From a virus, in IMG/VR virus record IMGVR_UViG_3300034101_004588, positions 146,957-210,956 of that record: 64,000 nucleotides of DNA; one strand, 5' to 3'. Made by a program: the position numbers and the translations under genes. The notes below the pieces were generated by a model, which was not told the origin of the DNA, searched no databases, and was given only the letters and a program-made list of their open reading frames with translations. Positions within the stretch are counted from its first letter, which is position 1. Each line of letters opens with the position of its first letter. This document shows, in pieces, positions 13,580-58,711 of this stretch.

Positions 13580-13687
13580 TTACTTTACGGTGCAAACAGT
13601 CGTCTTACCACTTGGTTTACATTCTTTTTTTGATGCACATGCGGTAAGGGTCATAATTGCCACGATTGTTAGAATAATGTATTTCAT
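13580..13687 (-). CDS. very small lipoprotein, 35 aa
   Basis: ATG at 13685-13687. Short basic start, hydrophobic core IILTIVAIMT, then lipobox LTAC at residues 14-17 and a mature peptide of about 19 residues with two further Cys. Such tiny phage lipoproteins can be Rz1-type outer spanins, but no inner spanin is adjacent. Lipidation is predicted from the lipobox only. Confidence 0.6.
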   Translation of the reverse strand: MKYIILTIVAIMTLTACASKKECKPSGKTTVCTVK

Positions 13688-13730
13688 AGAATCTTTATTA
13701 TAATACTTTTATTTATAATATCAACTGTTG

Positions 13731-13803
13731 GTTGCTCGACGGGGTTCGAACCCGCTCCGACAGAATCACAATCTGTAATGCTTACCGTTACACTACAAGC
13801 AAC
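13731..13803 (-). tRNA. tRNA-His (GUG)
   Basis: Acceptor TTGCTTG/CGAGCAA extended by the extra G(-1):C73 pair diagnostic of tRNA-His. Anticodon stem ACAGA/TCTGT, loop TTGTGAT (GTG), T-loop TTCGAAC. Confidence 0.94.
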
Positions 13804-25734: not shown

Positions 25735-27012
25735 TTATTGTGCTCGTTGATCTGCTCTAGCTGCGGATCCCATATCATTTAAAGTGTCGTCTATTAATTT
25801 TGCCCAATACTTGTAAGTTTGACTCTTTTTACTATTTTTCATAATAGAATCTTCCCATAAAACAGCTTCCCAATTTTCTTTATTTTGTTCTGCTAATTCC
25901 ATGGCTTGAGCCATTCTTTTGTTAATACTTTCGTAATCTGTGTCTGCAAATAGATATAACAATTTACGCAATCTTGAATTCATGTCTTCATCTGCTGCAT
26001 CTGGAGCTCTAACATTAATATATGTATGTTGTAATTCTGCTGGTAATTCTGTGTAATCTTTTGAATATATCTTTTTTCTAGTATCTATATAAGCTCTTTT
26101 TACTCTATAAGATGTAAAGTTTGTAAAATCTGAAGGACCTGCATTACGAGTAACTTGATAAATTTGCTCGTCTTCTGTAAGAGGACGATAAACAAATAAT
26201 TTTTCCAATCCTTTTAACTTTGGTTGCCATTCTTGAGAAATAACCATATTCCAATCACCAACTCTTTCACGATTGTTCAACGCATTAGTTAATCTAAATT
26301 TACCATCTCTTTGAGCGTGAATAACTATAACGTGGTTGTCATCAGATACTGGTAAGGTTTCATCATACACAAAATAAACACTGGCACTAGTATCACCGGA
26401 TCCAAATCTATAACTGTAAAATAAACTTCTTTCTATAGGATAAGAAATACACCATCCGTAGTATTTGCTGATATCTTTGCTTTCGTTTTTGGCTTCTTCT
26501 TCTTTTTCTTTTGATAGAAAACGTTTAAATAAAATACAAGAATTGGGATCTTTACCAAAATAAACATGAATTCCATTTTTCGGATCTTTGTATATTTCTT
26601 CAGCTCCGGTTTCTCCTTCTGCCATTTCAACTTTAGATGCTGCTTTTTCTGCCGGGTCTCTAAATTGATGGACTATTTTTTCTAGATCAGACCAATTATA
26701 AAATTCTACTTGAAGAGGTTGTTTTTTTAAATTTTCAAAACGGCGAACATCTTTTTGATTTCTTTCATCCGGTTTAATATCTCCACTATCTATATATTGT
26801 TGAACTAGTTCTTTAATACGATTAGATGTATTGTTGGCTGTTTTAAGTTGATCAAATCTTTGTAAGGTTGCTCGAATAGCTGTTTCTTCTACAAATGCTC
26901 CTGCTTGTGGTTTTAATCTTTTAATTTGTTGATTGAGAAACCCTTCACTGTATTCGTTCAAAATAATACCTCCATACACTTGTTCCAATAAAATTTGATC
27001 TTTGGTTCTCAT
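25735..27012 (-). CDS. head-cargo family protein with KDQILLE leader, 425 aa
   Basis: Starts MRTKDQILLEQVYGGIILNE. LLE at residues 8-10 is the predicted cleavage site. The mature part has an N-terminal helical domain and, around residues 180-270, a domain with YYGWCISYPI, SLFYSYRFG, ASVYFVYDE and HVIVIHAQRDG, an arrangement I have seen in large-phage proteins without known function. Largest single-domain member of the family here. Confidence 0.65.
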   Translation of the reverse strand: MRTKDQILLEQVYGGIILNEYSEGFLNQQIKRLKPQAGAFVEETAIRATLQRFDQLKTANNTSNRIKELVQQYIDSGDIKPDERNQKDVRRFENLKKQPLQVEFYNWSDLEKIVHQFRDPAEKAASKVEMAEGETGAEEIYKDPKNGIHVYFGKDPNSCILFKRFLSKEKEEEAKNESKDISKYYGWCISYPIERSLFYSYRFGSGDTSASVYFVYDETLPVSDDNHVIVIHAQRDGKFRLTNALNNRERVGDWNMVISQEWQPKLKGLEKLFVYRPLTEDEQIYQVTRNAGPSDFTNFTSYRVKRAYIDTRKKIYSKDYTELPAELQHTYINVRAPDAADEDMNSRLRKLLYLFADTDYESINKRMAQAMELAEQNKENWEAVLWEDSIMKNSKKSQTYKYWAKLIDDTLNDMGSAARADQRAQ

Positions 27013-27024
27013 CTATTTTAATAT

Positions 27025-27471
27025 TTACCAGTTTTGTTCATAATATTCTGCTCTGGTTAAAGATGGAGAACCTAATATATTTTCTATTCTTGAAACTACT
27101 TCTTCATCATCAATATTACAAGGACCTCCTACATGCCAATTATATTCTTCTCTTGGTATGCGTTTTTCTCTATAGACATATATTGTAACTATTAATCCGT
27201 CTTCAAACTGTATTACCCATCTAGCTAAAACCTTATCGTCTTCTGTATAAATTGGTTTACCAAATTTATCTATCAATTGTTTGTGTGTTGTTTTTACGTA
27301 TCCTTTTAAACAAGTACCAGATATTTCTATATCATTGCTATTAATTTTTTTTATCTTATAGCGATTTGAAAAGGATCTCAAAGCTTGAACTTTATTTAAA
27401 TCTGCTTCTAAAAGAGATGCATAAACATTTTTTAAGGTTTTAAATTTTTTGGGTATATTACTTTTATTCAT
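27025..27471 (-). CDS. head-cargo family protein, 148 aa
   Basis: Around residues 20-34 reads LLEADLNKVQALRSF: the LxE site followed by the family NKxxALxSF motif, here shifted about 15 residues from the start. Then the shared domain: FGKPIYT, WVIQFEDGLIVTI, and a C-terminal VVSRIENIL. It has the same WxIxFxDG domain as the units of 46170-48326, showing that the two blocks are related. Confidence 0.65.
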   Translation of the reverse strand: MNKSNIPKKFKTLKNVYASLLEADLNKVQALRSFSNRYKIKKINSNDIEISGTCLKGYVKTTHKQLIDKFGKPIYTEDDKVLARWVIQFEDGLIVTIYVYREKRIPREEYNWHVGGPCNIDDEEVVSRIENILGSPSLTRAEYYEQNW

Positions 27472-27472
27472 A

Positions 27473-27871
27473 TTAATACGAATTCCACATTTTTAACCAT
27501 TTATCATAATTTGGTTCTATTTTTCCGTCTATTACCAATTCTCTTAATACCACTTCTGCAACTTTGAAAAGGTGAGAAGTTGGAGGTATTTCTGCATCCA
27601 AACTAGTATATTCACTGTCTGAAAATCTTTTTAAACTTATTAATTCCATTTCTGGTTCTTCTAGAGCCCACTCAAACGTATACCTTGCTTCGTAATGGTC
27701 GTCTTTAGCAATAAAACTTAATATATAAATTTTATTGTCTTTATCATAATCTTCGTTTTCTATTATAAAATCCCTGCCAGGTCCTAAGTCTTTATCAAAA
27801 TCCATAAATTTTTTTAAACCTTGAATCTTATCATATTGAGATTCTAAAAGTATTTGATCCTTGGTTTTCAT
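27473..27871 (-). CDS. head-cargo family protein, 132 aa
   Basis: Starts MKTKDQILLESQYDKIQGLK. The mature part carries KDDHYEARYTFEWALEEPEM and LISLKRFSD, closely similar to 27887-28303, so the two are recent duplicates. CCTAAATA (27878-27885, minus) lies 6 nt upstream. Confidence 0.65.
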   Translation of the reverse strand: MKTKDQILLESQYDKIQGLKKFMDFDKDLGPGRDFIIENEDYDKDNKIYILSFIAKDDHYEARYTFEWALEEPEMELISLKRFSDSEYTSLDAEIPPTSHLFKVAEVVLRELVIDGKIEPNYDKWLKMWNSY

Positions 27872-27886
27872 TTTTATTATTTAGGT

Positions 27887-28303
27887 TCAATAATCTGGTT
27901 TCCAAAAATGAGGCGGTATTTCTGGTTCCAGTTTACCTGCATCTACCAAGGCTTCTATCTTTTCTTCTGCGTCTATAAAAAGTTTTGAACCAGGTGTTAT
28001 TTCTGCTTCTAGATAATCATAATTTTCATCTGCATATCTTTTTAAACTCAAAAGTTTTATAATATGATCTGGATTCCAACCTTCGTATTTCCACCAAAAA
28101 TTATATCTTGCTTCATAATAATCATCTTTAGCTTTAAAGGATACCACATAAATTTTTGCTTGATAATTCGGAAATTCTGTGTCTTTATATAATATTTGAA
28201 AATGAGAAGGGTCTCCTAAATCCGATTCTCTTTCGGCAAACTTTTTAAGAGCTAAAATTTTATCTGTAGCTTCTCTTAATAATTGTAAATCCTTTTTATT
28301 CAT
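27887..28303 (-). CDS. head-cargo family protein, paralogue of 27473-27871, 138 aa
   Basis: Start at ATG 28301-28303 (MNKKDLQLLREATDKILALK), overlapping the upstream stop by ATGA. LLRE gives an LxE site. Shares YVVSFKAKDDYYEARYNFWW and LLSLKRYAD with its neighbour. The domain is not recognised beyond the family. Confidence 0.65.
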   Translation of the reverse strand: MNKKDLQLLREATDKILALKKFAERESDLGDPSHFQILYKDTEFPNYQAKIYVVSFKAKDDYYEARYNFWWKYEGWNPDHIIKLLSLKRYADENYDYLEAEITPGSKLFIDAEEKIEALVDAGKLEPEIPPHFWKPDY

Positions 28304-28788
28304 GGACCATACCACCTAGTTGATGCTGTGAAATAATCTAAAAAGTCATTGTAATCAGGTTCATTATAAAATGTTGTCAAATAATCATAAGCTTTACTTC
28401 CTAATTCTTCTGTTAAATCTTCAGACCAATTTTTTTTAAATTTTTCATAACCGCCATAATTTTCTAAAGTATCTTTGGTTGCTTTATCGTACAAAGCTTG
28501 GTGTAAGAATCCTTCATACTCTTGTTGTATTTCTCGAGAAGACAAATGGTCATAATAAAAATCTACATTTATTGGATTTAATTCTATATTTCTTTTTACA
28601 TGGTCTAGATATTCTGGTAAAATAGACATATACAATTCTCTGGGAACACCCATGGAAGAGTTTTCATATTCGTCTATGGTTAGTTTTTTAACATGATCTA
28701 AAACATTAAGCTCTTTATTGGCAAATTGTTTAAACGCTTGTATCTTGTCGTATTGAGCTTCTAAAAGTATTTGGTCTTTATATTTCAT
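28300..28788 (-). CDS. head-cargo family protein, 162 aa
   Basis: Starts MKYKDQILLEAQYDKIQAFK, with QFANKE following; leader and KxxAFKQF motif both present. The remainder is helical and acidic (YGGYEKFKKNWSEDLTEELG). Start overlaps the upstream stop by one base (TAATG). Confidence 0.65.
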   Translation of the reverse strand: MKYKDQILLEAQYDKIQAFKQFANKELNVLDHVKKLTIDEYENSSMGVPRELYMSILPEYLDHVKRNIELNPINVDFYYDHLSSREIQQEYEGFLHQALYDKATKDTLENYGGYEKFKKNWSEDLTEELGSKAYDYLTTFYNEPDYNDFLDYFTASTRWYGP

Positions 28789-29129
28789 TAAACAAATAAT
28801 TCTACAACATCTTTAATATCTGGAATTATCATTTCTATATCATCTTGGTCTATCTCTTTTCCTTCTTTATCATAAAGAGGAGTTTCTAAATATTTTTGCG
28901 AAGATACCCAGTTTCTATAAAAATTATCAAATTCTGGTGTAGATAAAAATCCAGCAAATGTTTGTATAGCAGAATTTAATTTATCTATATGTTCATTGTA
29001 CTTGCTAATCATAAGACCGGCTTCTCGGCGATCTTTTTCATCTTTAGAAAAAGATTTTAGTCCTTGAATTTTTAGATTAGTTATTTCTTCTGCAGCTTCT
29101 TGTAATAATTGTAAATCTTTTTTTGTCAT
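28788..29129 (-). CDS. head-cargo family protein, 113 aa
   Basis: Starts MTKKDLQLLQEAAEEITNLK, then IQGLKSFSKDEKD. LLQE supplies the LxE site. Helical mature part with no motif. ATGA overlap with 29126-29446. Confidence 0.62.
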   Translation of the reverse strand: MTKKDLQLLQEAAEEITNLKIQGLKSFSKDEKDRREAGLMISKYNEHIDKLNSAIQTFAGFLSTPEFDNFYRNWVSSQKYLETPLYDKEGKEIDQDDIEMIIPDIKDVVELFV

Positions 29130-40068: not shown

Positions 40069-40404
40069 TTAATCTGTATCTTTAATGAACTTCATAAGCT
40101 GTCTACCCCAATCAAAGAGGTTTTCCGGAAATTCTTTAATAGTTTTCATACTATAGTAAAGATTAAATTCTTCAGGGGTCTTTCCAGGTTTATTTTGTAA
40201 TTGTTCTAAGACGTCTTCAATCCTTTGATTAATTTCTTCTTCTTGACCTATCAAGACCTTTTCTATATCTAATATAAGCCCAAAAACCTGATTGATCTTA
40301 CGGGAGAGCTCCATTATATCTTTTTCTTTATTAGCAAATTCTTTAAAGGCATCAACCTTATTTTGCACCTGATTATAGGCTTCGGATAAACTTTTATTAT
40401 TCAT
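40069..40404 (-). CDS. head-cargo family protein, 111 aa
   Basis: Starts MNNKSLSEAYNQVQNKVDAF, then KEFANKEKD: the KxxAFKxF motif with a shortened leader. Remainder is a helical bundle. Overlaps the upstream gene by 8 nt. Confidence 0.62.
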   Translation of the reverse strand: MNNKSLSEAYNQVQNKVDAFKEFANKEKDIMELSRKINQVFGLILDIEKVLIGQEEEINQRIEDVLEQLQNKPGKTPEEFNLYYSMKTIKEFPENLFDWGRQLMKFIKDTD

Positions 40405-40984
40405 TGGTCCATTTATCTATCTTTCTTAACATTTCGGAGAGTTTATGAATTCCTTGGAAGTCATCTCCTAAAATACTATATTCATTTTCTGATCCCCAAT
40501 GAGCCTTACGATAGGCAGGGGGCATATGGTTTAGATTAAATCCTAGGTCTTTGGCATTAGGAGCCCATAAGAGAAATTCTACTTCATTTTTAAGTAAGCG
40601 AGCCAGGATCTCTACTATAACATAAGCCTTATAGGTTCCTTCTAAACCAAAGATATGAAAGTCTCTTTTTTGATTCATTTCAAATTTATAGTTAGTATCT
40701 TGAGGGGTAGGTTTTAAAGGATCGGTATATATCAATAAAGGTTTAGCAGTTGCTCGATTAGGAATTTCCCAGGCCCATACATCATCGAAACCGGACTCTT
40801 GAGTAATTTCATCGTTCTCGGTTATATATTTGTGGGGTCCCAATACTCTTTCTAGATCGGCAATGGAAGCTTTAATGGTCAATTCATTTTTATATTGGTC
40901 TTTAATTTCTTGTTTAAAGAAATTTTTAAAGCCTTGAGCCTTAACATTAGATAAGGTTTCTTCTACAAGTTGATTAAATTTCAT
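40397..40984 (-). CDS. head-cargo family protein, 195 aa
   Basis: Starts MKFNQLVEETLSNVKAQGFK, with LVEE as the (I/L)xE site and KAQGFKNFF as the family motif. The mature part contains VWAWEIPNRATAKPLLIYTD and YVIVEILARLLKNEVEFLLW, a mixed alpha/beta domain that I do not recognise. Confidence 0.63.
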   Translation of the reverse strand: MKFNQLVEETLSNVKAQGFKNFFKQEIKDQYKNELTIKASIADLERVLGPHKYITENDEITQESGFDDVWAWEIPNRATAKPLLIYTDPLKPTPQDTNYKFEMNQKRDFHIFGLEGTYKAYVIVEILARLLKNEVEFLLWAPNAKDLGFNLNHMPPAYRKAHWGSENEYSILGDDFQGIHKLSEMLRKIDKWTNE

Positions 40985-40998
40985 GGATCTATTATTTA

Positions 40999-41412
40999 TT
41001 ATTCTCCGGGTGGAAAGAGAACCTCGTCTTGTAAGGGTTGTTCTAAACGAAATTCCCAGTGATAGGTTTTCTTGCCTAAAGTTGGATTATTAGGTTCGGT
41101 GTAAAGTTCATTCTTATATCCATAGTCATTTAGAGCCTGAGATATGTTTCTTAATTCTCGCACTTTAATCTTAATACGTTGATCAACTCCTATGGCAAAG
41201 AAATCTTCATCAATCCAATCAAATTTTATATAAGAAGATAAATGAGGAACTGTTTGGTTTACTATGTTCTTTATAACTTTGCTTTCGTTATTAGATTCTT
41301 CCGCAGTTCTTTTAGAGGTGTTTTGGGAAAAACTTTTTAAAGCCTGGAGCTTATCATTCTCTAATACCGTTTGATAAACTTCTTTTAAAATTTGTAAATC
41401 CTTATCACCCAT
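40999..41412 (-). CDS. head-cargo family protein, 137 aa
   Basis: Starts MGDKDLQILKEVYQTVLEND, then KLQALKSFSQN: both the KDLQxL leader and the xLENDKL junction are present. Mature domain is short alpha/beta. CCTAAATA (41419-41426, minus) lies 6 nt upstream, so expression is late, unlike the neighbouring early-type genes. Confidence 0.65.
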   Translation of the reverse strand: MGDKDLQILKEVYQTVLENDKLQALKSFSQNTSKRTAEESNNESKVIKNIVNQTVPHLSSYIKFDWIDEDFFAIGVDQRIKIKVRELRNISQALNDYGYKNELYTEPNNPTLGKKTYHWEFRLEQPLQDEVLFPPGE

Positions 41413-43579: not shown

Positions 43580-44143
43580 TTAAGACCTTGATATACTCAA
43601 TATTTGTGCCTGAGGTATGAGTTTTTCTATTTTAATCTTGGTTCTAGCTCTTTGCTCTTTTTCATCTTCTTCTGATTTTATCCACATCGGCCAAGGTTTA
43701 AGAGTACCAAAGTGAATATAGAATTTTTTTGGTGATGTTATTGTTTTAAAATAATTTAATACCCCTTCTTCGGATTCAAATTGAAAAGGAGGTATTTTAG
43801 ACGAAGTATATATAGATCCTAAAGAATTATCTTCAAGTTCAAAATACCAAGAAACTGTGATAACGGTAGAAACTATATTTTTATTTTTGCTATCAAAAAG
43901 TCGAGTGTGATGTACATCATAAAAAGTAACATCTGTTTCACTAGGATCTCCGAGACTCTCAAAAACATTTTTTGGAATTACTTCAATAGTACTTTTCATT
44001 TGAGGGTTTATCTCAAACTCATCTCTAGTAAATTTACGTTTAATCCTGGTGTAAGAAAAAAAAGATTGTAAACCTCTCAACTTATCATTTTCATTGATAG
44101 AATGGTAAGTTTTTAATAAAGATTGTAGGTCTTTGTTATTCAT
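43580..44143 (-). CDS. head-cargo family protein, 187 aa
   Basis: Starts MNNKDLQSLLKTYHSINEND, then KLRGLQSFFSY; INE before NDKL is an (I/L)xE site. The mature domain has SLGDPSETDVTFYDVHH, VITVSWYFELEDNSLGSIYT and a C-terminal MWIKSEEDEKE, i.e. a version of the WxIxFxDG domain (WYFELEDNS). Overlaps the next gene by 4 nt. Confidence 0.67.
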   Translation of the reverse strand: MNNKDLQSLLKTYHSINENDKLRGLQSFFSYTRIKRKFTRDEFEINPQMKSTIEVIPKNVFESLGDPSETDVTFYDVHHTRLFDSKNKNIVSTVITVSWYFELEDNSLGSIYTSSKIPPFQFESEEGVLNYFKTITSPKKFYIHFGTLKPWPMWIKSEEDEKEQRARTKIKIEKLIPQAQILSISRS

Positions 44144-44793
44144 CCGTGTATTAGTCTTCTAAACATACCAGCATATTCATCTAAATAATCTGGCAATAAT
44201 TCTAAATTCATGGCATTTTCAAATTCTTTTAATTCTTGTGGAGTCAATGTTCCTTCATTATAACCTGGAGATAAATTTTCAATAGCACTGTTCATATTTG
44301 AGACCATTTCTTGTTGATGTTTTTTTAATATTTTATAATTTTTATCTAAATGCTTTTGCATGTTTTTAACATCCTCTGCAAATTGTGATATTTCTTTATT
44401 GTTTTGTGCAAAGCTTTTTAATCCTTCAAGTTTATTATTTTCTTCTATTGTACCTTCTAAAGTTTTTTTAAGTTCTTCTGCTGCGTCTTCTAAAACTCTT
44501 ACAAAGCCATAAATGTTATCTGCATTAGATTTAGCATCTTTTGAAGCTTCAATTTCATTTTTTAATACTCCACGAAGCCAGGCCATATATTCTTTCTCTT
44601 GAAAGTCATCATCATAAAGTTCAGAAAGAAAATCATCGAATTTATGAAAGAAATCTACAATTCTGTTTTGAATGTATCGTGTTCTTTGTTCGAAATTTTC
44701 TTGTTTACTAAAACTTTTGAGTGCCTGAAGTTTATCATTTTCATTAATCATTTGATAAGCTTTACCTAGAGATTGTAGATCTTTATCTTTCAT
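44140..44793 (-). CDS. two-unit head-cargo family protein, 217 aa
   Basis: Starts MKDKDLQSLGKAYQMINEND and KLQALKSFSKQ. A second junction IEENNKLEGLKSF occurs at about residue 117-129, so cleavage after IEE would release two helical pieces of about 95-100 residues each. Both units are all-helical and lack the WxIxFxDG domain. Confidence 0.68.
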   Translation of the reverse strand: MKDKDLQSLGKAYQMINENDKLQALKSFSKQENFEQRTRYIQNRIVDFFHKFDDFLSELYDDDFQEKEYMAWLRGVLKNEIEASKDAKSNADNIYGFVRVLEDAAEELKKTLEGTIEENNKLEGLKSFAQNNKEISQFAEDVKNMQKHLDKNYKILKKHQQEMVSNMNSAIENLSPGYNEGTLTPQELKEFENAMNLELLPDYLDEYAGMFRRLIHG

Positions 44794-44803: not shown

Positions 44804-45322
44804 TTAACGGGTTTTTTGTTTATTTTTAAAAACAATTCTATCAATACGTTCTTGTATGTCTTTTGCTATCTCGCCAAGTTCTTTGTTTTGTATAGAAGGA
44901 TCGGTTGCTCCTTTATATCTAAAATATACTCTATAACTTATATCACGATAATCATCTCGATAATCTTCGTCTTCATCGCGAGGCAATATAAACTTTTTTG
45001 CTAGGTAATGTTCCAACCAAAAAGGATCTATGTGGTTTGTGCTTATAGCCATTTTTACATTATCTGCAAATTCAATATACCAAGATATTGTTCCATATTT
45101 CCAATCAAGACCACGGTGATATTCATAATGTGAAATTTCATTTGGAGGGCCAAATATATCTGCTATTCGAGTTACATCGTGATGAAAATTTTCAACAAAA
45201 TAAGAATCTTTATATTTTTTAGGATTAAATGTACCTTTGACCTGAAAACGCAAAACGTCATAGGTATAAAAATCTTTAAATCCTTTTAATTTTTTAGCTG
45301 CTCTATTATCTTGATTTTCCAT
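44804..45322 (-). CDS. head-cargo family protein, 172 aa
   Basis: Starts MENQDNRAAKKLKGFKDFYT: the KLKGFKDF motif is present but the leader lacks a clear (I/L)xE. The domain contains FGPPNEISHYEYHRG and TISWYIEFADNVKMAISTNH, a clear WxIxFxDG member. TAATG overlap with the upstream gene. Confidence 0.67.
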   Translation of the reverse strand: MENQDNRAAKKLKGFKDFYTYDVLRFQVKGTFNPKKYKDSYFVENFHHDVTRIADIFGPPNEISHYEYHRGLDWKYGTISWYIEFADNVKMAISTNHIDPFWLEHYLAKKFILPRDEDEDYRDDYRDISYRVYFRYKGATDPSIQNKELGEIAKDIQERIDRIVFKNKQKTR

Positions 45323-46173
45323 TACAGTTTTAAAAGCGTTTGTAATCGGCTTACAACGTCTTGATACTTATTTGCTGGAGAAACTCCAACCCACCAATCT
45401 GTAGGTTCATCTTCTAAAAGATCAAAGTTGTTGCGGGTTAAGTCTTCATCGTCGTCATGTTCTTTGGTGACAAATCCATACATATGAACAAAGGCTCCAT
45501 CATTAAATTCTATATACCAATCAGCCTTAGCTTGATCGGTATCAAAGTAAGCGTCAATATCTCCTTGATAGTCTAAAGAATTAGGAGTCGGATTTATATC
45601 TGACATCTTATCCATCATATCTTCATAACTTACTCCCCCAATAAAAAATTCGGTAGGGCTCATGTCATCTTTTGCTTCTAAGGCTCTTTCTTTCCATTCT
45701 TTATAACTTAAAAATTGAAAGTTTTGAGACATTTTAAAAGATTTTAAACCTTCTAATTTACTTTCTGATATCTGTTCCGGCAATGTTTGTTCTAGATGTT
45801 CACTATAATCTTTAGATATTTTCTCTGGACCAATAACAAACCATTCCAAGATTTCATTTTCTAGCATTTGATCTACCGACAAAGCTAATACAGAGGCGAT
45901 ATAAATTTTTCCTCCGTTGGTAAAGGTTATTTCCCAAGCAATTTTAGTATCTCCTCCTTTAGTTTTATCTATTGAAGGTTCTACTCCTTTAAGATAATTT
46001 TTTAAAATAGGATAGGTAGCAGTAAATTCAAAAACTCCTTCTTTTATTGAAGGGTCTTTAAGAACCAAATCCCATAGATTTACTGGTTTAACTTTCTCTA
46101 TATCAAATCTATTAGCAAAAGACTTTAAAGCGTCTAACTTATTATTTTCTTTTAGATATTGCTTAAAGTTCAT
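45322..46173 (-). CDS. two-unit head-cargo family protein, 283 aa
   Basis: Starts MNFKQYLKENNKLDALKSFA (LKE site). Unit 1 has IAWEITFTNGGKIYIAS; a second junction QISESKLEGLKSF at about residue 135-147 (ISE site) precedes unit 2 with ADWYIEFNDGAFVHMY and VVSRLQTLL. Two tandem copies of the same domain separated by a cleavable linker. Confidence 0.7.
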   Translation of the reverse strand: MNFKQYLKENNKLDALKSFANRFDIEKVKPVNLWDLVLKDPSIKEGVFEFTATYPILKNYLKGVEPSIDKTKGGDTKIAWEITFTNGGKIYIASVLALSVDQMLENEILEWFVIGPEKISKDYSEHLEQTLPEQISESKLEGLKSFKMSQNFQFLSYKEWKERALEAKDDMSPTEFFIGGVSYEDMMDKMSDINPTPNSLDYQGDIDAYFDTDQAKADWYIEFNDGAFVHMYGFVTKEHDDDEDLTRNNFDLLEDEPTDWWVGVSPANKYQDVVSRLQTLLKL

Positions 46174-48326
46174 ATTATGTTTAGAGGTATATTATTTATA
46201 TTAAATTTTTCTGTGACCTCTTCTCTTTTTTTATTAGACCAAACATCAAAAGAATAATTTTGATCGTAATCTATATTTGAACCTTTGGCGTGAGTTTTAA
46301 AAATAGCAATTAAGGTCCCGTCTCCAAATATTATTCCCCACCCTGTATTAAATCTATAGTCCATGCGAAAGTGGGGATAATGAAACACTGTACCTAATCT
46401 TTTTTCTAATTGGGGGTAGGAACTATTGATTTGAAAGGCAAAATATTTATATATTTCCGGAGCCAATCTATCCGGATTAACTATTTCTATAATTTTATTA
46501 CTTTTTTGAAAAGCTTTTAATCCTTCTAGTTTATTACTTTCCTCTTGCACATACACTTCTGAATTTGGAAACATAGAGGATATTCTATTTTTTAAATCTG
46601 GTTTACTTGTTGTTTTTGCTTTCGATTTTTTTGATGGAATATAAACATACCATCTTTCATTTGCAGTTTCTAAATCATAATTAAAATGGTTTTGTCTTTG
46701 CTGTGTATTTTTTAAATAATCCATCATATTACTATTGAGACCTGGTGTAATTATACATTTTAAACCGTCTTTAAATGTAAATGCCCATAATACATATTCA
46801 AATAAAGATTGAGAACTAGTATCCCATTTCCAAGGATCGAAATTGCCTGCAGGAAGATTAAGTTTTTGTGGTTCTCCAAATTTGTTTTTAACTTCTTTTA
46901 AATTAGATACAAAAGATCCCAAACACTCAAATCCCGCATCAGAAAAGTTTGGGTCTTTAGAAATTTCAAATTGTTGAGTATCTAAAAATTGTTTAAATCC
47001 TAATATTTTATTATTTTCTTTTATAATTTGTTTGTTGAGAATGGTTTTTATTCTTTCAACTACATCTAAAGCATTTTGTTCATCCTGATCATTAGCTACA
47101 TAAACATCCCAAGGATGATCTTCATCCGGATCTAATTCTCCAAACATTTCCATAGCATCTTCATTGGTTAATCCTTGTAAAATAACTTTATTACCATCAC
47201 CAAACTCTATACCCCAATTGTAAATAATTGTGTCACCGTTACGAGGATTGACATCTCTTTCAATTCGCGGTTCTCCAAATTTAGATTTTAGATTGTTTAT
47301 CGAAGCATAAAAGTCATCTGTCGGATCTGCGTGCACGTAATTATCAAACCTGTATTCATTATTAATATTTTTTTCCCAATTTTTAAGAGTTTGTTGGTCT
47401 ATTGATCTGAATTGCAATTTACTAAAAAAACTTTTTAAATTTATTAATTTATTATTTTCTTCTATATTTCTTCTAGTCCAAGGCACAACATCTAAATTTA
47501 TTTTTGTTTGTCCTAATATAAATTTAAGACGATCTGATAAATCTTCTTTTTCTTCTGCCCCTTCATAAGTTCCATAAACAGTCCATTTGTCGCTAAAATA
47601 AACAGTTATATCTGCTTTAGAAACCGATCCTGTCTTTAAATAACGATCGGTTACATCTTTTGGAATATAGTTACTGGTGATATACATTGCCTTGCCATCA
47701 GCAAAAGTAATAACCCACATAAAAGCTGAATAAGTGGTATTTGGTAAAGTTTCTACAAAAGGTTTACCAAACAATTGAACTATTTCATTATAATTTTTAA
47801 AAAACTGTCCCATCATTGTAAGATTAGTTTTAGGTAAATCTTTTAAACCCGAGAGTTTAATTATTTTATAACGATTATAAAAATTTTTAAATCCTTGTAA
47901 TTTATTTTCTTTTAAAAGTTTACCACCCTTTTCTTTTATAGCTTGTTTTATTCTTGCAATGTAATCTTTTGGATTCATACCAGATACCGTCCAATAAGTT
48001 ATTTGTTCTAGATTTTTCTTTGCGTTTATGCCAAAAGGTTTTATTTCTTTTAAAGCAGATACAGAAGCCTTTGCTCCGTCTTTAAAAGTAACCAACCATA
48101 TCCAATCTGTTTCATCAAACCCTATTTTTTTTTCTTTTGGAGGTTTACCAAAAGTTTTTAATAAAGCATCATAAGAAACATGAAATCCTTCTACTCTATT
48201 TTCTTGAGAAGGATACATTGGTTGTAAAAAATCACTATATTCTTCCGGTGAATAATCATTTGAAACAAATGCTATTCCGTGAGAAGCTGAAAAATCTTTT
48301 AAAGCTTTTAATTTAAAATTATTCAT
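46170..48326 (-). CDS. five-unit head-cargo polyprotein-like protein, 718 aa
   Basis: Five tandem units begin at about residues 1 (MNNFKLKALKDF), 138 (LLKENKLQGFKNF), 290 (IEENNKLINLKSF), 437 (IIKENNKILGFKQF) and 596 (QEESNKLEGLKAF). Units have an FGxP element, a WxxxFxDG strand pair (WLVTFKDGAK, WVITFADGKA, WGIEFGDGNK, WAFTFKDGLK, WGIIFGDGTL) and usually a C-terminal helix. Each internal junction has a Glu in an (I/L)xE-like context, except the last (VQEE). Parsimonious reading: tandem duplication of a packaged protein, cut apart by the prohead protease. Confidence 0.75.
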   Translation of the reverse strand: MNNFKLKALKDFSASHGIAFVSNDYSPEEYSDFLQPMYPSQENRVEGFHVSYDALLKTFGKPPKEKKIGFDETDWIWLVTFKDGAKASVSALKEIKPFGINAKKNLEQITYWTVSGMNPKDYIARIKQAIKEKGGKLLKENKLQGFKNFYNRYKIIKLSGLKDLPKTNLTMMGQFFKNYNEIVQLFGKPFVETLPNTTYSAFMWVITFADGKAMYITSNYIPKDVTDRYLKTGSVSKADITVYFSDKWTVYGTYEGAEEKEDLSDRLKFILGQTKINLDVVPWTRRNIEENNKLINLKSFFSKLQFRSIDQQTLKNWEKNINNEYRFDNYVHADPTDDFYASINNLKSKFGEPRIERDVNPRNGDTIIYNWGIEFGDGNKVILQGLTNEDAMEMFGELDPDEDHPWDVYVANDQDEQNALDVVERIKTILNKQIIKENNKILGFKQFLDTQQFEISKDPNFSDAGFECLGSFVSNLKEVKNKFGEPQKLNLPAGNFDPWKWDTSSQSLFEYVLWAFTFKDGLKCIITPGLNSNMMDYLKNTQQRQNHFNYDLETANERWYVYIPSKKSKAKTTSKPDLKNRISSMFPNSEVYVQEESNKLEGLKAFQKSNKIIEIVNPDRLAPEIYKYFAFQINSSYPQLEKRLGTVFHYPHFRMDYRFNTGWGIIFGDGTLIAIFKTHAKGSNIDYDQNYSFDVWSNKKREEVTEKFNINNIPLNII

Positions 48327-48625
48327 ATACCTTCAAAAAATCCGTTTCTTTCTAAAAAACTATTTAAAATTTCTTTAGCTCTTTCTCTTTCTCCATACCA
48401 ATGTACACCATATAGCTCATTTTCTGGATCATGAATTGTATTATGTACGAATTGCCATAACACCTGCCAATGACTAGATCCTTGAATGACTGTTCTTAAA
48501 TTTAATTGTTCTGGTATATGTTCTCTCATGAAGTCTAAAATCTTTTCATCCAATTCTGAATGTCTGGAAAAAGATTTTAATGCAGACAATTTATTATTTT
48601 CTTTTATATATTTTTTAAAATTCAT
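48323..48625 (-). CDS. head-cargo family protein, 100 aa
   Basis: Starts MNFKKYIKENNKLSALKSFS (IKE site), nearly identical to 45322-46173 in its first 19 residues. The mature part is short and helical (HWQVLWQFVHNTIHDPENEL). ATGA overlap with the polyprotein gene. Confidence 0.65.
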   Translation of the reverse strand: MNFKKYIKENNKLSALKSFSRHSELDEKILDFMREHIPEQLNLRTVIQGSSHWQVLWQFVHNTIHDPENELYGVHWYGERERAKEILNSFLERNGFFEGI

Positions 48626-48628
48626 TGG

Positions 48629-49057
48629 TTATCTTTTATTTAATAAATGATCTAATCGTTCTAAAATTTCTTGTTCTCTTCCTATTGGACCAGTTACTTG
48701 TGCTATAACTGGGCTGTCTGGAATAACATTATTTTCCTCATCATAATGCAAATCATGAACTTCAGTACTTAATATAACTTTAACACCATCGTTAAATTCA
48801 ATCCCCCATTCTAAAAATTTTGCTCTACCTGGTCCTTCGTCTGTGAAATCGGGTTCTCCAAATAAATCTATCAAACTATCATATCTATCTACAACCATTT
48901 CTGTCATATAATAATCCATGCCCAACTTTTCTATATCTTTTACTGACATAGAAAAATAAGGTTTTGCATCAAATCTTTTTTTTACCATATATGCTCCTGC
49001 AAATTGTTTAAATGCTTCTAATTTATTTTCTGTATAATATTTTAAAAAAGTTTTCAT
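48629..49057 (-). CDS. head-cargo family protein, 142 aa
   Basis: Starts MKTFLKYYTENKLEAFKQFA; the site is YTE rather than (I/L)xE. Domain has FGEPDFTDEG, FLEWGIEFNDGVKVILST and ILERLDHLL, a clear WxIxFxDG member. Confidence 0.66.
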   Translation of the reverse strand: MKTFLKYYTENKLEAFKQFAGAYMVKKRFDAKPYFSMSVKDIEKLGMDYYMTEMVVDRYDSLIDLFGEPDFTDEGPGRAKFLEWGIEFNDGVKVILSTEVHDLHYDEENNVIPDSPVIAQVTGPIGREQEILERLDHLLNKR

Positions 49058-49434
49058 GTTAATATATTAGTTAATCTTTCAATCACTTCTTTTGATTTAT
49101 TTTCTGGAGCAGATACACTATAAGCATAAAATTCATCTCCTCTCGACAAATATCTTAACACGGATAATGTATTATCTCCAAATTCTATAATCCAGAGAGG
49201 ACCCATCATGCCGTAAGCTCCGGTTATTGGTTCTCCTAAAAGTTTTTTAACATCTTTATAAGGAGGAGCTTTAGGAAAAACAATTGTTTTATAATTAGCT
49301 AATATATTAGGATCTGCTAATTCGGGATATATTCTGTTAATATCCGCTCGAGTTCTCATCCCTTCTTTGTTTGCTGCTATAATTTGATTGGCTTTAACAA
49401 ATTGTTGAAAACTTTTTAATTTATTTTTATCCAT
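49054..49434 (-). CDS. head-cargo family protein, 126 aa
   Basis: Start at ATG 49432-49434 (MDKNKLKSFQQFVKANQIIA), overlapping the previous gene by 8 nt. No leader before NKL, as in 46170-48326. Domain has LLGEPITGAYG, LWIIEFGDNTLSVL and VIERLTNIL. Confidence 0.65.
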   Translation of the reverse strand: MDKNKLKSFQQFVKANQIIAANKEGMRTRADINRIYPELADPNILANYKTIVFPKAPPYKDVKKLLGEPITGAYGMMGPLWIIEFGDNTLSVLRYLSRGDEFYAYSVSAPENKSKEVIERLTNILT

Positions 49435-50233
49435 GACGTAAAAAATATTCTCTGTCTGCATCAAATTCTTTACGTTCGTAATTAAAATTTGCTATCATAT
49501 CTTTAAAAGGTATGAATATTTCATCACCTTCTTCTGCTTTACGAAATGCTTGTCTGGGTTCTATTTTGCTCCAAAGCATATGAAGACCGGTAGGTTTAAC
49601 TTCTAATATTTCCCCAGTAACACTATACTGATCTGCAACTACTTCTCCGTATTGAGCATAGCTAAAACGTTTACGACCATATATAGTTAAATCCAAATCA
49701 ACAGCGTCTTTAAAAAGATTGTAAAGATCGTAAGAATTTACTAATCGTGAAGAATATTGTAAATTATCATATTTTCGAATTATGTCTCGTCTCTTTTCAT
49801 CACTAACAAAAGATTTTAAACCTTCTAGTTTATTGTTTTCGGATATTTGTTTTAATCCTAATTTATTTAAAATTGTGTTTAAAATATCTTCAGCGTCTTT
49901 ATAAGCATTAACAATTATAGATATGCCTTTATCTTGTTCGTTTGTTAAAAAAACTAAACGAGAAGGTGTTCCTCCCATTTTAAAATCCCAAATATAAGAT
50001 TTATAGTCTCTTGGAATTTTTTTTGAAACCCAAGATCCTCCATGTCCAAATAAATCAGCCAATTGACTTGGATAAATTGTTCGGTCTTTTGGTATTTTAT
50101 AACCAGCTACGGTTTCATTTTGAACCGAAGGATAAGAAGTTTTGAAGTCTCCTGAAGGAATGTATTCAATTTGATTAAACGATTTTAAAGCTTTTAATTT
50201 ATCATTTTCTAATAGATATTGCTTAAAGTTCAC
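49427..50233 (-). CDS. two-unit head-cargo family protein, 268 aa
   Basis: GTG start at 50231-50233; MNFKQYLLENDKLKALKSFN (LLE site). Unit 1 has YIWDFKMGGTPSRLVFLTNE, a diverged WxIxFxDG core. A second junction QISENNKLEGLKSF (ISE site) at about residue 131-144 starts a different, beta-rich unit (VVADQYSVTGEILEVKPTG). Confidence 0.67.
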   Translation of the reverse strand: MNFKQYLLENDKLKALKSFNQIEYIPSGDFKTSYPSVQNETVAGYKIPKDRTIYPSQLADLFGHGGSWVSKKIPRDYKSYIWDFKMGGTPSRLVFLTNEQDKGISIIVNAYKDAEDILNTILNKLGLKQISENNKLEGLKSFVSDEKRRDIIRKYDNLQYSSRLVNSYDLYNLFKDAVDLDLTIYGRKRFSYAQYGEVVADQYSVTGEILEVKPTGLHMLWSKIEPRQAFRKAEEGDEIFIPFKDMIANFNYERKEFDADREYFLRHG

Positions 50234-50241: not shown

Positions 50242-50628
50242 TTATTCTTTGATCTCCGGAGTCATCGCATATATATTATAAAGATACAAGACATATTCTT
50301 TAAATTGATCTTGTAAAGAATAAATTGTTAGTTCTTCGAAAGGGTTTGTAGGTTGCATTTCTAAAATACCTTGCAAAGATTCTATAAAAGATAGCATTAT
50401 AGAATCATATCTTTTTGGTCCTATTAATTCTTTTTGTTCTTTGGTGACCATTGATTCATAAGACAAATAGGATTTGACTTGTTCTTGATCTATTTTACCA
50501 TCTTTAACAATATCAATGGGTTTGTTTTCGATAAAAGATTTTAAAGCTTGAACTTTTGGTTCTATTTGTTCTTGAAACACTTTGTCTTCTTTAACAAAGT
50601 CTTTAAAAGCTTTAAACTTTTTTAACAT
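50242..50628 (-). CDS. head-cargo family protein, 128 aa
   Basis: Starts MLKKFKAFKDFVKEDKVFQE, then EQIEPKVQALKSFIENKP: two KxxALKxF-type motifs 20 residues apart with IEP/IEN between. All-helical remainder. It heads the second cargo block, but no strong late octamer is visible upstream. Confidence 0.63.
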   Translation of the reverse strand: MLKKFKAFKDFVKEDKVFQEQIEPKVQALKSFIENKPIDIVKDGKIDQEQVKSYLSYESMVTKEQKELIGPKRYDSIMLSFIESLQGILEMQPTNPFEELTIYSLQDQFKEYVLYLYNIYAMTPEIKE

Positions 50629-53222: not shown

Positions 53223-54095
53223 ATGGCTGGATTAAAATTATCGCAAATGACACCTGTAAGTGATATACAGGATGGAGACAGAATATTATTATCTCGCAAA
53301 ATAAACAACCTATGGCGTAGTTTTGTTTTGCCTGGAAGAATTCTAAGCAAATTAGAAACTGGTGGTGTAAACAGAGGAAACGGAACTCCAATATTCATGG
53401 ATAAATCTGGAGAAAATTTAAGATTTAGAACCTTTAAAAGCAGAAACGTTAATTTAGCAATAACTAATGATACAGATGAAATCTTTCTGGAAGCGAAGGT
53501 CAACGGAGCTAATAAAGGTACGGGTAATGATGGCGAACCTATTTTTGCTGGTAAAAATAGTCAAACAGGTACTTTAGAATTTAAAAGAATAAACACCGGT
53601 CGTAATTTAAGAATAGATGATAATCAAAATAGAGTATTGATATCGGTTCCACAAAATTTTTATTTTTTCCGACCAGCAAGACCTGCAAACCCGAACGTAC
53701 ATCCGGTTTTATATCGCAACTCCTGGTCAATGGATAATTTTAGAAACAGAGATTTTAGTACTGGTTGGTTGAGAATACCTGTTCAGGGAGCACCTGATAA
53801 TTGTGATTTGGCTTTAATAAGATGGAAAGTTAATTCAAATCCAGGTGGCAATAGTCAAATAAAAGCAGAAGTACGACAAAAATCTGGCGCCTCTGAATCC
53901 AATAGAATATCTATAGACAGTGTAGGTGGCGCAGGCCCTGCATTTGAAGGTGAGGAAATAATAACTACCGTAGTACAATTTGAACCAAGACAAAATTATT
54001 TTGAAATTAAAATAGATGCAACTGTAGGTGGAACGGCAAGAGTAGGAAATACTTTTTTAACTACTAGAGTTGTTTTGGAAGGCTTTTATTGTTAA
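53223..54095 (+). CDS. tail/baseplate fibre-type protein, 290 aa
   Basis: Starts MAGLKLSQMTPVSDIQDGDR, then repeats of NGTPIFMDKSGENLRFRTF and GEPIFAGKNSQTGTLEFKRI, and a C-terminal beta-sandwich-like domain. CCTAAATA (53203-53210) lies 12 nt upstream. Typical of phage appendages. Ends 5 nt before the next gene. Confidence 0.65.
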   Translation: MAGLKLSQMTPVSDIQDGDRILLSRKINNLWRSFVLPGRILSKLETGGVNRGNGTPIFMDKSGENLRFRTFKSRNVNLAITNDTDEIFLEAKVNGANKGTGNDGEPIFAGKNSQTGTLEFKRINTGRNLRIDDNQNRVLISVPQNFYFFRPARPANPNVHPVLYRNSWSMDNFRNRDFSTGWLRIPVQGAPDNCDLALIRWKVNSNPGGNSQIKAEVRQKSGASESNRISIDSVGGAGPAFEGEEIITTVVQFEPRQNYFEIKIDATVGGTARVGNTFLTTRVVLEGFYC

Positions 54096-54100
54096 AAGGA

Positions 54101-57100
54101 ATGAATGATGATATTAAACCCTATTCATACAATGAATGGCTGGCTAAGAATAGTCTTGTAGCAGAAGACGCTTATAAGGCTTATACAGGTTATTTAATAG
54201 ACTGGTATCATCAACATAAAGGTCAAGGCAAATCTTTAAAAAACGATTACATACAGCTTTTAAAAGATTTAAATTTTTTATTCAAAGACGAAGTTAAAAA
54301 TAGATTTTTAGCAGAAATTGATTTAGATAATGACGAAGAAATTATCAATGCCATACCTTATTTTGCTAGTAAAGTAAAAGAATTAATTCAAGTTTATAAT
54401 GAGAAAAGAAAAAATGTTAAGCGAGCTAAATTAAAACATAGCTTAAATTCTTCTTTTCGAGGTATAGAAACTTTATTATATGAACATATATTAAAAAGTT
54501 TTACTAAAAAAGGTCAATTAGTAGAAATACCTTTTAAAGAAATTGCAGATTTGTTGCCACAACTCAAAGATGTTAATGATAGGTTTTATATAGAGATAGA
54601 AGAAATATATGATAAATCAAACTATTTTGATGCATCTCCTGAGTTACCTGCAAATGCTTATGTAAACACAGAAGAACTTTTAAAATCTTCTGCGTATCAA
54701 AATTTTACAGACGAACAAATAAATTCTATAATACAATCAGGATTTTTAAACAGAGCCGCTAATAATCCTCTTTCTAGAATATTTGCTCAATTTATTTTTC
54801 CTGTAATAGAAGCAGAAGATGTAGAAGATCAAAGACCAATCACCTATTTAAATTCTATTAATACTATTAAAGCGAATCAAAAATATCTTGGTTCAGATTT
54901 ATATGGTTTAACAGCAATACGTTTAAGAGAAGTAGAAAAACCAGATTTAATTATATCTTTAAATGTACAACCTGGTAACAATTGGTTTTACTGGCCAAGC
55001 GGAGACAAGGTTTATTCTGAAACTATTATAGATAATATCTATTTTCCGATACCTATAAATTCTTCTAATTTAATAGACAACGGAGCCACAGCCGGAACAG
55101 GTATAAGTGATTCAGATTTAATTTTTACGGATAAAAGAGGATTCATAGAAGGTGCCTGGTTGCGTGGTCCTTATAATACAGAAATATATAAAAATGTTTC
55201 TGTTAATATAGAACCTAATAGTATAAGAGAATTTATATGGCCTTATACGGGATTTGAATTATCAGAAATTACTAATGAATGGGGAGGTCATGTTACCAAT
55301 GATAATTCTATTGGAACTTTTTATTTTTTACCAGCTCCGGAAAAAGAAAAAATATTAGAAAAATATTACACGACAAATTTACCTGCAGACTCTGCTCATC
55401 CAATATATTTAAATCAAACAGATTTTTTCAGACAAGGAAGCTTTGCAGCAGAAAATTCTTATGAATCAGATGTTATTTTAAAACAAAATAATAATCAAAA
55501 TATAAATTCTATATACAATGAAACAGTTGGAGAAACAGAAGCAGCATTTTTATATAAGTTTACCGAAACTAACCTACCTGTATTAAATGGTTTAAATACC
55601 TATTTATGGCCTTTAAAGAGAGTAGATACGGATCAAGAAAATATACCGATAAAAATAGATAATAAGTTTTGTTCACCTTTAGAATTAAGGTTTATTAATA
55701 TTAAAAAAAGTTTCAAAGGAGCTGTTGCTGGGTTAACTTTTGATACAGCCGATGTTATATTTAAAATAGATAAACAAAACGGTGTTCCCGTTGAGGCTGC
55801 TTGGTTAGCCTCACAACCAATAGGAGAATTAGATATAGTTAAAAATTCTATTAAAGTTTATAATAATAAAGCTGTTAATTGCCAACAATGTTTAGAAGGG
55901 CCTATACAAACTGGATTAAGCACTTTAATACAGCCAGGGCAATTTGTATCTTTTATATGGACTGGTGACGACACCTATTTGGACAATGTTGTTAAATTTG
56001 TAGAACATAACGATGGATGTCCTTATAAAAATATTAAAACGGATTATTATACTGATCAAGATTTTCGTAATGCCGTTCCTTTAGTTCAAAAAGAAAACAA
56101 ATGGGAAAAATGTAATTGTCGTTCTGTTTATTTTTCACCCATTGGGCATAAAGGAAATAATTTAACAGATTATGATGGTATTACAGATTTTATTTTTCAT
56201 GATCCAGAAGGTTTAGGAGATAATTTTACTTTTGATAGTTGGAAAGATTCTCGTAATTTAAAATATCGTAACAGTCCACAATTTGCTTTTTATCAATTAG
56301 ACAAACAAATTGTTTATAATAAAGACGTTATAGGTTGGGGTGTTGGAAGGTGGAAAACAGGATCATCTTCAAATAATGGAAGATTTGTATTAAGAACAGG
56401 TAGAAGATATACCTACTATCGTTCAAATTTTAAAACAGTTAATTCTGAAACTGTTCCTTATTTGGTCATAAATCATCCCTATGAATCTCAAACTGTTAAC
56501 TGTGTAACTCCTAACTGTTTTGATATGGTTATTTGTGTTGATTTGAGTGTGTCTCAAAAATATAATTTAGATGTCAGTAAAAAAATAGTAGAAGAAATAG
56601 TTAGAGCTAAACCTATTAATTCTCAAATTGCTATAGTGGCTTTTGATTTAGAAGGTTCAATACTATCTTATTTAGAACAAACCCCAGACACAGTCACATT
56701 ATTTGAACGAATGGCTACTTTAGGAAATAGAGTAGAGTTTTATCGCACCAACATATATGATGCATTAGAGTTAGCAAACACTATATTAACAACAACAATT
56801 ACTCAAGGTACAACTGTTAAAAATTTTAAACGATTATGTGCAGATTTAAATGCTACTTTAGTAGCAGCTCAAGAGACTTTAGTCTTGAATGACCCTCAAG
56901 AAGATTGTGACAAAAAAATAGTCATTATAAGTGATGGGGCTAGTAATGTGTTTACTAAAACTGGTTTAAATTATGCAGAAAGATTAAAAGGAAAAGGAAT
57001 AAAAATTCACGGTATAGATATCGGTATGTTATCAAAATATAACGATAACTTAGAAACAATGTCGTCTTCTAATTTTTATTTTAATTTAGAAAAATTTTTA

Positions 57101-58711
57101 ACTCTTAGTGACGGAGATATAGAAGACTTTTTATCTTTCTTTATAGGTTCTGTTAATGGTTGTGTACCTGAGGTGGGAAGATGGAATTTAGCTACAAGAT
57201 CAGCAGATGGAAATTGGACTGGTGAACATGAACAATCTCCCATGATTATTCGTCCTGGAGATTATATAATTTATTTGCACCGAGAAGAGATTAGTTATCT
57301 CTCGCCAGTTAATGGAACTGTAGCTTTTACTCAACCTTCAATCAACTTTACTTTAGACGCTCCTTTAGAAGGTTGGAGTTATCTTACGAATACTTTTGAT
57401 GACAATGCTTCTTACGAAGTATCTGGTGCAAGACCATATTGGGCTGAAGCTTATGTTGATCCTCTCAATGATGTACAAAGAGAAGGATATACAGTTGATG
57501 TAAATTTTGATAAAAACTCTATGTATTCTGGAGGTCATGTAAGATGGGTAGAAAATTATTTGCCGGTCACACAACCAGATATTTCTAAAATGGTCTTAAC
57601 CAATGGAAATTTTATTCAATATAAACGCAACAAAACAGAAAGTTTGCTTTTAAAACAAAGAGTTAAATTTGATAGACCAGTAGAAGGTAAGGTTTGGTGT
57701 AAATTGGAATTTACAAAACAATTTTCTAAAATAGAAAAATTATTACAAAGTAATAAATTAGAATATATTGTAGAGCCTACCTATGAAGAATCAGATTTAG
57801 ATTTAGAAGGTTTTTATGAATTTAAAAATTCTCGATACAATTATTTTGCTCGTAATGCTTTTGATTATAGTCAGGAATTATTTTTAATTAATAAATGTAG
57901 GGATAATTTTGTAGTATTTACATCCGGAAGAGTATTACAAGCAGAAATGCCTTATGCTCATTTAGATAACGTTAATTTTCCAACTGTAGCTTCAGTTCCC
58001 CTTCCTTATAATTTTGTTACTAAAACAGAAGTTGGAGAATATTTGTTACCTACTAAATTTGGAGTTTCTTATTTTAGAGGCAAGGGCCATTCTATTAGTT
58101 TAGATCCTCAAAGCTTAACTACTTTAGACGCTATGAGTGCTGAAAGATTATTTTTAGACCCAACAAATTATGGTCCTATTACTAGAGGTTTAACTAAAAC
58201 AAATAATTATTCTCCTACTAAAATTGATTATGTTGACAATAGATGGATGATAGCTCCTTACGGATCTGGAGATTATTCCGGAACTGTAATTGATACAGTA
58301 GCTAATCAAAAGTTTACTGCCTATCAAAGTAGCTATGAAGTATATGGGCAAAATGAATTTGGAGTATCAAGGCAAGTTGACAATACACAATTTTATACCG
58401 GAGGGTTTCCGCCTGTGTGGAATGATCCAATAAATTATCCGTTGACCTATAGAGGAGAAGTGAAACCTCAGGATTATTTATTGCGTCGAGATAAATTATT
58501 AGGTGATGTAGGTATTATAACATCTTGGAAGACAGATATTTATGGAAACAATTATGGTTTGTTTAAATCTCGAGAAGATCAAAACAGATTACAAACTGAA
58601 GTTCCAGAAGACATAAAGACAGACAAAGAAAACTTCCAATTAAGAGAGACTGAGTATTTAACTTATAATGTCAGAGAACAAGATGCTTTAGATTTTGAGG
58701 TAGACCTTTAA
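54101..58711 (+). CDS. giant virion protein with von Willebrand factor A domain, 1536 aa
   Basis: Start at ATG 54101, preceded by AAAAGGA. Residues about 806-980 form a vWA domain: MVICVDLSVSQKY gives the DxSxS MIDAS motif, IAIVAFDLEGS follows, and KIVIISDGAS with IHGIDIGML closes it. Flanking regions contain repeats of a beta domain with an (I/L)xPGxFVSFIW-type strand. No catalytic motifs. vWA domains bind ligands via a metal ion, so this could bind host surface proteins or organise the tail/baseplate. Lies between fibre and portal genes. Confidence 0.75.
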   Translation: MNDDIKPYSYNEWLAKNSLVAEDAYKAYTGYLIDWYHQHKGQGKSLKNDYIQLLKDLNFLFKDEVKNRFLAEIDLDNDEEIINAIPYFASKVKELIQVYNEKRKNVKRAKLKHSLNSSFRGIETLLYEHILKSFTKKGQLVEIPFKEIADLLPQLKDVNDRFYIEIEEIYDKSNYFDASPELPANAYVNTEELLKSSAYQNFTDEQINSIIQSGFLNRAANNPLSRIFAQFIFPVIEAEDVEDQRPITYLNSINTIKANQKYLGSDLYGLTAIRLREVEKPDLIISLNVQPGNNWFYWPSGDKVYSETIIDNIYFPIPINSSNLIDNGATAGTGISDSDLIFTDKRGFIEGAWLRGPYNTEIYKNVSVNIEPNSIREFIWPYTGFELSEITNEWGGHVTNDNSIGTFYFLPAPEKEKILEKYYTTNLPADSAHPIYLNQTDFFRQGSFAAENSYESDVILKQNNNQNINSIYNETVGETEAAFLYKFTETNLPVLNGLNTYLWPLKRVDTDQENIPIKIDNKFCSPLELRFINIKKSFKGAVAGLTFDTADVIFKIDKQNGVPVEAAWLASQPIGELDIVKNSIKVYNNKAVNCQQCLEGPIQTGLSTLIQPGQFVSFIWTGDDTYLDNVVKFVEHNDGCPYKNIKTDYYTDQDFRNAVPLVQKENKWEKCNCRSVYFSPIGHKGNNLTDYDGITDFIFHDPEGLGDNFTFDSWKDSRNLKYRNSPQFAFYQLDKQIVYNKDVIGWGVGRWKTGSSSNNGRFVLRTGRRYTYYRSNFKTVNSETVPYLVINHPYESQTVNCVTPNCFDMVICVDLSVSQKYNLDVSKKIVEEIVRAKPINSQIAIVAFDLEGSILSYLEQTPDTVTLFERMATLGNRVEFYRTNIYDALELANTILTTTITQGTTVKNFKRLCADLNATLVAAQETLVLNDPQEDCDKKIVIISDGASNVFTKTGLNYAERLKGKGIKIHGIDIGMLSKYNDNLETMSSSNFYFNLEKFLTLSDGDIEDFLSFFIGSVNGCVPEVGRWNLATRSADGNWTGEHEQSPMIIRPGDYIIYLHREEISYLSPVNGTVAFTQPSINFTLDAPLEGWSYLTNTFDDNASYEVSGARPYWAEAYVDPLNDVQREGYTVDVNFDKNSMYSGGHVRWVENYLPVTQPDISKMVLTNGNFIQYKRNKTESLLLKQRVKFDRPVEGKVWCKLEFTKQFSKIEKLLQSNKLEYIVEPTYEESDLDLEGFYEFKNSRYNYFARNAFDYSQELFLINKCRDNFVVFTSGRVLQAEMPYAHLDNVNFPTVASVPLPYNFVTKTEVGEYLLPTKFGVSYFRGKGHSISLDPQSLTTLDAMSAERLFLDPTNYGPITRGLTKTNNYSPTKIDYVDNRWMIAPYGSGDYSGTVIDTVANQKFTAYQSSYEVYGQNEFGVSRQVDNTQFYTGGFPPVWNDPINYPLTYRGEVKPQDYLLRRDKLLGDVGIITSWKTDIYGNNYGLFKSREDQNRLQTEVPEDIKTDKENFQLRETEYLTYNVREQDALDFEVDL

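Follow-up and report, generated by a model that had tools for sequence, protein, structure and literature searches.

The minus-strand open reading frame (ORF) at 46170-48326 of the window, by which is meant the whole 64 kb stretch of DNA analysed here and the final part of the 210,956-base record of a large uncultured T4-like bacterial virus, raises the question of whether a chain of five like units would function intact or be divided. It is read here, with a probability of about 0.62, as a head-internal cargo polyprotein that would be cut by a gp21-type protease into five proteins.

Five diverged units in one reading frame

Each unit of the ORF consists of a K[LI]xx[LF]KxF box (at residues 5, 142, 293, 440 and 599) and a domain characterised by the motif WxxxFxDG, which occurs once per unit, the overall arrangement being as follows.

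46170..48326, (-) strand: five-unit ORF; 718 aa, 83.6 kDa; no leader
47907..48326, (-) strand: unit a, residues 1-140, 16.0 kDa; N-terminus MNNFKLKALKDF; matched by profile in the leave-out test
47457..47906, (-) strand: unit b, residues 141-290, 17.5 kDa
47016..47456, (-) strand: unit c, residues 291-437, 17.3 kDa
46542..47015, (-) strand: unit d, residues 438-595, 18.4 kDa
46173..46541, (-) strand: unit e, residues 596-718, 14.5 kDa

Identity among the five units amounts to 16-26%, and a profile prepared from the units of other genes only (the leave-out test) matched all five with E values of 9e-8 to 5e-14, and still did so after removal of the box (5e-4 to 1e-10). This combination of low identity and leave-out matches, obtained even with the box absent, indicates that the units are real and old rather than an artefact of assembly, and confirms the presence of five tandem units in a single ORF, as had been proposed from an earlier, sequence-only reading of this DNA. 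The same reading had defined the unit as NKLxGLKxF plus WxIxFxDG, and both elements do occur in each unit in the broader forms given above, but the notion of the box as a part of the domain had to be discarded, because the box stands before bodies that bear no obvious resemblance to one another, and the WxxxFxDG domain is found in many phages as a leaderless stand-alone protein, mostly of 95-130 aa, that begins at the domain and carries no box. The leader-plus-box segment borne by many of the neighbouring genes is consequently best read as a module added in front of a pre-existing domain. On the evidence of the 20 records that share the capsid gene, and of a DNA pattern search, in neither of which the box was found among relatives, it is a lineage-specific element.

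A widespread small phage protein with the pattern NGTSLQGY..TTY..L...FG.P......EW...F.DG...IYDWK, for which there is no Pfam or PHROG model, was recorded at window 27025-27471 and in L147, L148, L149, L150, L215, L196 and L236.

Junction sites and the surrounding paralogues

The peptides LLKE, IEE, IIKE and VQEE, singled out by the sequence-only reading as lying at the linkers, were indeed located ahead of boxes 2-5, where they provide four predicted cut sites (a slash marks the cut).

47907..47915, (-) strand: predicted cut site LKE/NKL, after residue 140
47457..47465, (-) strand: predicted cut site IEE/NNKL, after residue 290
47016..47024, (-) strand: predicted cut site IKE/NNKI, after residue 437
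46542..46550, (-) strand: predicted cut site VQE/ESNKL, after residue 595

Comparable sites, both internal and at the ends of N-terminal leaders, are present in the array of paralogues in which the ORF is situated.

45322..46173, (-) strand: two-unit paralogue; leader MNFKQYLKE/NNKL; internal ISE/SKL; TATAAATA 27 nt upstream
44140..44793, (-) strand: two-box protein; leader end INE/NDKL; internal IEE/NNKL; bodies not of the WxxxFxDG kind
49427..50233, (-) strand: two-box protein; leader MNFKQYLLE/NDKL; internal ISE/NNKL; bodies differ
48323..48625, (-) strand: single-box paralogue; leader MNFKKYIKE/NNKL; ATGA overlap with the start of the five-unit ORF
48629..49057, (-) strand: single-unit paralogue; profile match; structure modelled
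49054..49464, (-) strand: single-unit paralogue; no [LIV]xE site ahead of the box
44804..45322, (-) strand: single-unit paralogue; no [LIV]xE site ahead of the box
43580..44143, (-) strand: single-unit paralogue; leader end INE/NDKL
50242..50628, (-) strand: two closely spaced boxes with FQE between them
40397..41412, (-) strand: two more leader-plus-box genes (40397-40984 and 40999-41412)
25735..29129, (-) strand: second leader-gene cluster, MxxKDQILLE/; 27025-27471 holds the WxxxFxDG domain nearest to outside homologues

The genes at 44140, 45322 and 49427, previously described as two- and three-part versions, each proved to contain two boxes, with no three-part version among them, and only 45322 possesses two domains of the WxxxFxDG type.

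The tripeptide [LIV]xE stands one to three residues ahead of all seven internal boxes (four in 46170-48326 and a single one in each of 44140, 45322 and 49427), as against a background of 4.8% across the positions of these proteins, the resultant naive P of about 6e-10 being too small because the internal junctions share ancestry. It is moreover a weak motif, seven further copies of which occur in 46170-48326 away from the junctions. When the seven Glu-anchored junctions were compared, P3 was L, I, I, V, I, I and I, and P1 was E throughout, whereas P4-P12 exhibited no conservation (mean BLOSUM about -1), P11 excepted. Alignment of the units, the check suggested at the outset for distinguishing site conservation from linker drift, thus gave the pattern of a kept P3 and P1 beside a drifted remainder, and common ancestry does not explain why, as judged from these sequences, only P3, P1 and the box should have survived.

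The principal competing explanation, judged unlikely, is that of an uncut tandem-domain protein in which the box is a helix with a structural or binding function, and [LIV]xE was merely carried along whenever a unit was duplicated. One ancestral N-terminus may underlie all of the internal junctions, and in the model of the 48629 single-unit paralogue (leader, box and domain; pLDDT 84, pTM 0.75, good confidence) the leader runs on into the box as a single unbroken helix. Against this, the drift of P4-P12 was not accompanied by any loss of P3 or P1; the P3 residue has itself changed among L, I and V, its codon differing between several junctions; and there is no Glu in register before the four leaderless boxes that lie at, or close to, the beginning of a protein (46170 unit a, 44804, 49054 and the first of 50242), as would be expected if the purpose of the Glu is cutting. 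The model of the two-unit paralogue 45322 likewise runs counter to an uncut chain, its helices breaking at the site and the junction appearing as coil or low-confidence structure between two separate folds, in what is a weak model (pLDDT 70, pTM 0.45). The structure alignments comprised only 13 and 9 rows. Fold searches gave no match in the PDB at E<=0.001, and in a viral library matched solely uncharacterised or unnamed proteins at that threshold. The attributes of a polyprotein, namely folded units, linkers and a protease site at each joint, were found together, the structural part being taken from models of paralogues.

The leaderless start, the head protease and the leader families

The five-unit ORF begins MNNFKLKALKDF (M-NNFKLKALKDF), with neither an N-terminal leader nor a site, and with an in-frame stop just upstream, a result that, for this ORF, overturns the earlier suggestion of several proteins released from one targeting leader; that suggestion fits better with the two-part proteins at 44140, 45322 and 49427, which do carry leaders. 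Acquisition of a leader by a -1 frameshift from 48323-48625 at a T run was considered and rejected, as the shifted frame runs straight into a TGA and no slippery heptamer is present.

It is highly improbable that 46170-48326 is a degenerating or unpackaged copy within a growing array of paralogues, its leader lost and its sites mere relics. The missing leader and the AT-rich, fast-changing nature of the gene array would accord with such a fate, as would the outcome of searches for relatives of the fused ORF, none of which were found in phage, viral or genome collections or in the 20 records sharing the capsid gene. However, the 718-aa frame is intact, all five domains and their boxes are retained, and the start has an SD-like GAAGG and overlaps its neighbour 48323-48625 by ATGA.

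Cleavage after [LIV]xE is the activity to be anticipated of the T4-type prohead protease encoded in the same record (Peptidase_S77, E=2e-29, over the cut-off; record 13151-13642, also placed at 13115-13786), which is followed by a scaffold-like ORF and then a gp23-like capsid protein. The latter has IEE/A at the expected maturation position, at which [LIV]xE was recorded in 62/80 relatives, IEE and LNE being the commonest forms, with LKE, IKE and others also represented; the capsid tripeptides IEE, LKE and IKE recur among the junction sites. Of the leader-bearing records searched, all six longer than 110 kb encode Peptidase_S77; none was detected in six fragments shorter than that, which, being incomplete, carry little weight.

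A polyprotein that is cut, yet acts mainly as a filler of the prohead core or scaffold in the manner of T4 gp67 and gp68, the fragments of which mostly exit the head, is an improbable alternative. In T4 the core proteins are themselves cleaved into multiple fragments (PMC9026906), and a leaderless protein could well be a core component. By way of contrast, the units are folded domains (pLDDT 84) akin to stand-alone phage proteins and unlike scaffold peptides, and the space between the genes for protease and capsid protein already holds a separate scaffold-like ORF.

With respect to the timing of expression, a late-promoter-like TAARTA was located near or upstream of 12 of 25 leader genes as against 41 of 219 others (p=0.002), several of those 41 being structural genes or genes with another type of leader. 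It does not occur directly upstream of 46170-48326, for which late expression, in common with packaging and cleavage, is inferred.

T4-like, cleavable-looking leaders (MxxKDQILLE/, MNFKQYLKE/ and similar) are carried by about 25 ORFs of the genome, and several relatives have their own versions, such as MKSKDQILLE, MNKDSHLIFE and MNFKEFFKE. A pattern scan of viral contigs yielded 105 MxxKDQILLE stretches and 159 leader ORFs whose bodies differ widely. A tblastn search of cultured phages with a 21-aa leader gave no match, an outcome of little significance for so short a query, and pairwise self-comparison of 312 leader-like ORFs, a weak method for units so diverged, detected no other tandem leader polyproteins.

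Several separate observations were made on these leaders and their cargo. The MxxKDQILLExxY...[IL]xE leader of the 159 ORFs (L151-L255; e.g. L175:2801-11604, L191, L227) often has a second [LIV]xE 7-9 residues further on, and a further leader type, MxKFxxxxxxILxE, occurs at window 9099-9290, at record 57784-58614 and 69823-70065, and also in relatives. Candidate leader-bearing cargoes include an ADP-ribosyltransferase-like protein (L176:2382-2852), comparable with T4 Alt, itself an ADP-ribosyltransferase; a poly(A)-polymerase-head plus HD protein, CCA-adding-like (L175:5374-6909); a zeta-toxin-like P-loop protein behind a related leader (L096:18278-18877); and a nucleotidyltransferase-like sequence (Pfam CTP_transf_like, slightly below cut-off) behind the T4-like leader MKPFKQFLTE/ (L118:18652-19278). 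Several leader proteins (L171:11795-12130, L182:614-838, L198:4615-5334, L243:9194-9748) have a basic C-terminal segment, AKKKVNPWAIEKSIEKKTGKKFG, behind [IL]xE, which in one of them makes up the entire cargo and is possibly another cleavable fusion; the proposal that I-x-E/AKKKVNPWAIEK marks independent fusions was set aside as only suggestive, as the upstream segment is common to them too. Elsewhere in the window, 17 tRNA genes lie on the minus strand at 208-39179, and a 1540-aa ORF at 54089-58711, with a TTG start in the longest-frame call, contains what by eye resembles a von Willebrand A-type segment (MVICVDLSVSQK...).

Proposed maturation and comparison with known systems

According to the preferred reading of a cargo polyprotein, 46170-48326 would be translated together with a series of paralogous internal proteins that bear leaders, and the five-unit chain would join the prohead core alongside those neighbours. 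The gp21-type protease would then cut the chain after [LIV]xE at residues 140, 290, 437 and 595 to give five proteins with calculated masses of 16.0, 17.5, 17.3, 18.4 and 14.5 kDa, in line with the products of about 15-18 kDa originally foreseen, each with a KLxxLKxF box at or near its N-terminus as the mature single-unit paralogues would have. The central claim of the sequence-only reading, that of tandem units with a cleavage-type motif kept at every joint, is upheld by the occurrence of [LIV]xE at 7/7 internal boxes, the gp21-type protease and the leader-bearing paralogues. Weighing against the preferred reading are the missing leader, the seven [LIV]xE copies away from the junctions, the negative self-comparison of leader-like ORFs and the outcome of the searches of phage, viral and genome collections, in which no relative of the fused ORF was found. 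Since the chain is leaderless, its entry into the prohead would have to be secured by the box, by core or partner proteins, by binding to the leader-bearing paralogues or by some other route. That it enters by means of a retained, unremoved KLxxLKxF signal, to be divided by the head protease into five proteins in equal amounts, is put forward tentatively and is a somewhat doubtful proposition. By analogy with T4 IPI and Alt, the likeliest role of the products after ejection would be counter-defence or host takeover.

If this scheme is true, phages would be able to load several packaged proteins in a fixed ratio from one chain, thereby offering a natural design for multi-cargo packaging. The leader families in turn constitute a simple sequence handle on the packaged proteins of uncultured T4-like phages, the cargo of which is hardly known.

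The internal proteins of T4 and their targeting sequence are textbook material. The capsid targeting sequence of IPIII extends to about ten residues, of which residues 8 and 10 determine processing (PMC9026906), while the cuts in Alt fall at ITE-6 and LTE-619 (PMC5694885). The array described here resembles T4 IPI-IPIII and Alt in its short N-terminal leader ending [LI]xE, its gp21-type protease, and its diverse cargo behind a common leader, the cargo genes being expanded and variable in both. It differs in that each T4 gene, in the literature cited, gives rise to a single mature protein (Alt being trimmed at both ends), whereas here several units are strung together with a site between one and the next, the site is followed by a KLxxLKxF box, and no leader is present on the five-unit ORF.

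The inner-head ejection proteins of phiKZ and SPN3US similarly form paralogue families in which processing takes place behind x-E, in some members more than once (PMC10052503); their extra cuts, however, fall inside propeptides, SPN3US follows an A-x-E rule, and 46170-48326 has no significant match to Pfam or PHROG models, nor thereby to any described phage head-protein family. The stand-alone WxxxFxDG proteins of Methylophilales phage Melnitz and Flavobacterium phage immuto are homologous to the unit domain, but are single proteins of about 95-110 aa with neither leader nor box. Phage polyvalent proteins (PMC5512222), like 46170-48326, unite several domains in one chain, and those chains are packaged; their domains are mixed and in some cases include a peptidase of their own, in contrast to the five like domains, with no internal protease, that make up the chain described here.
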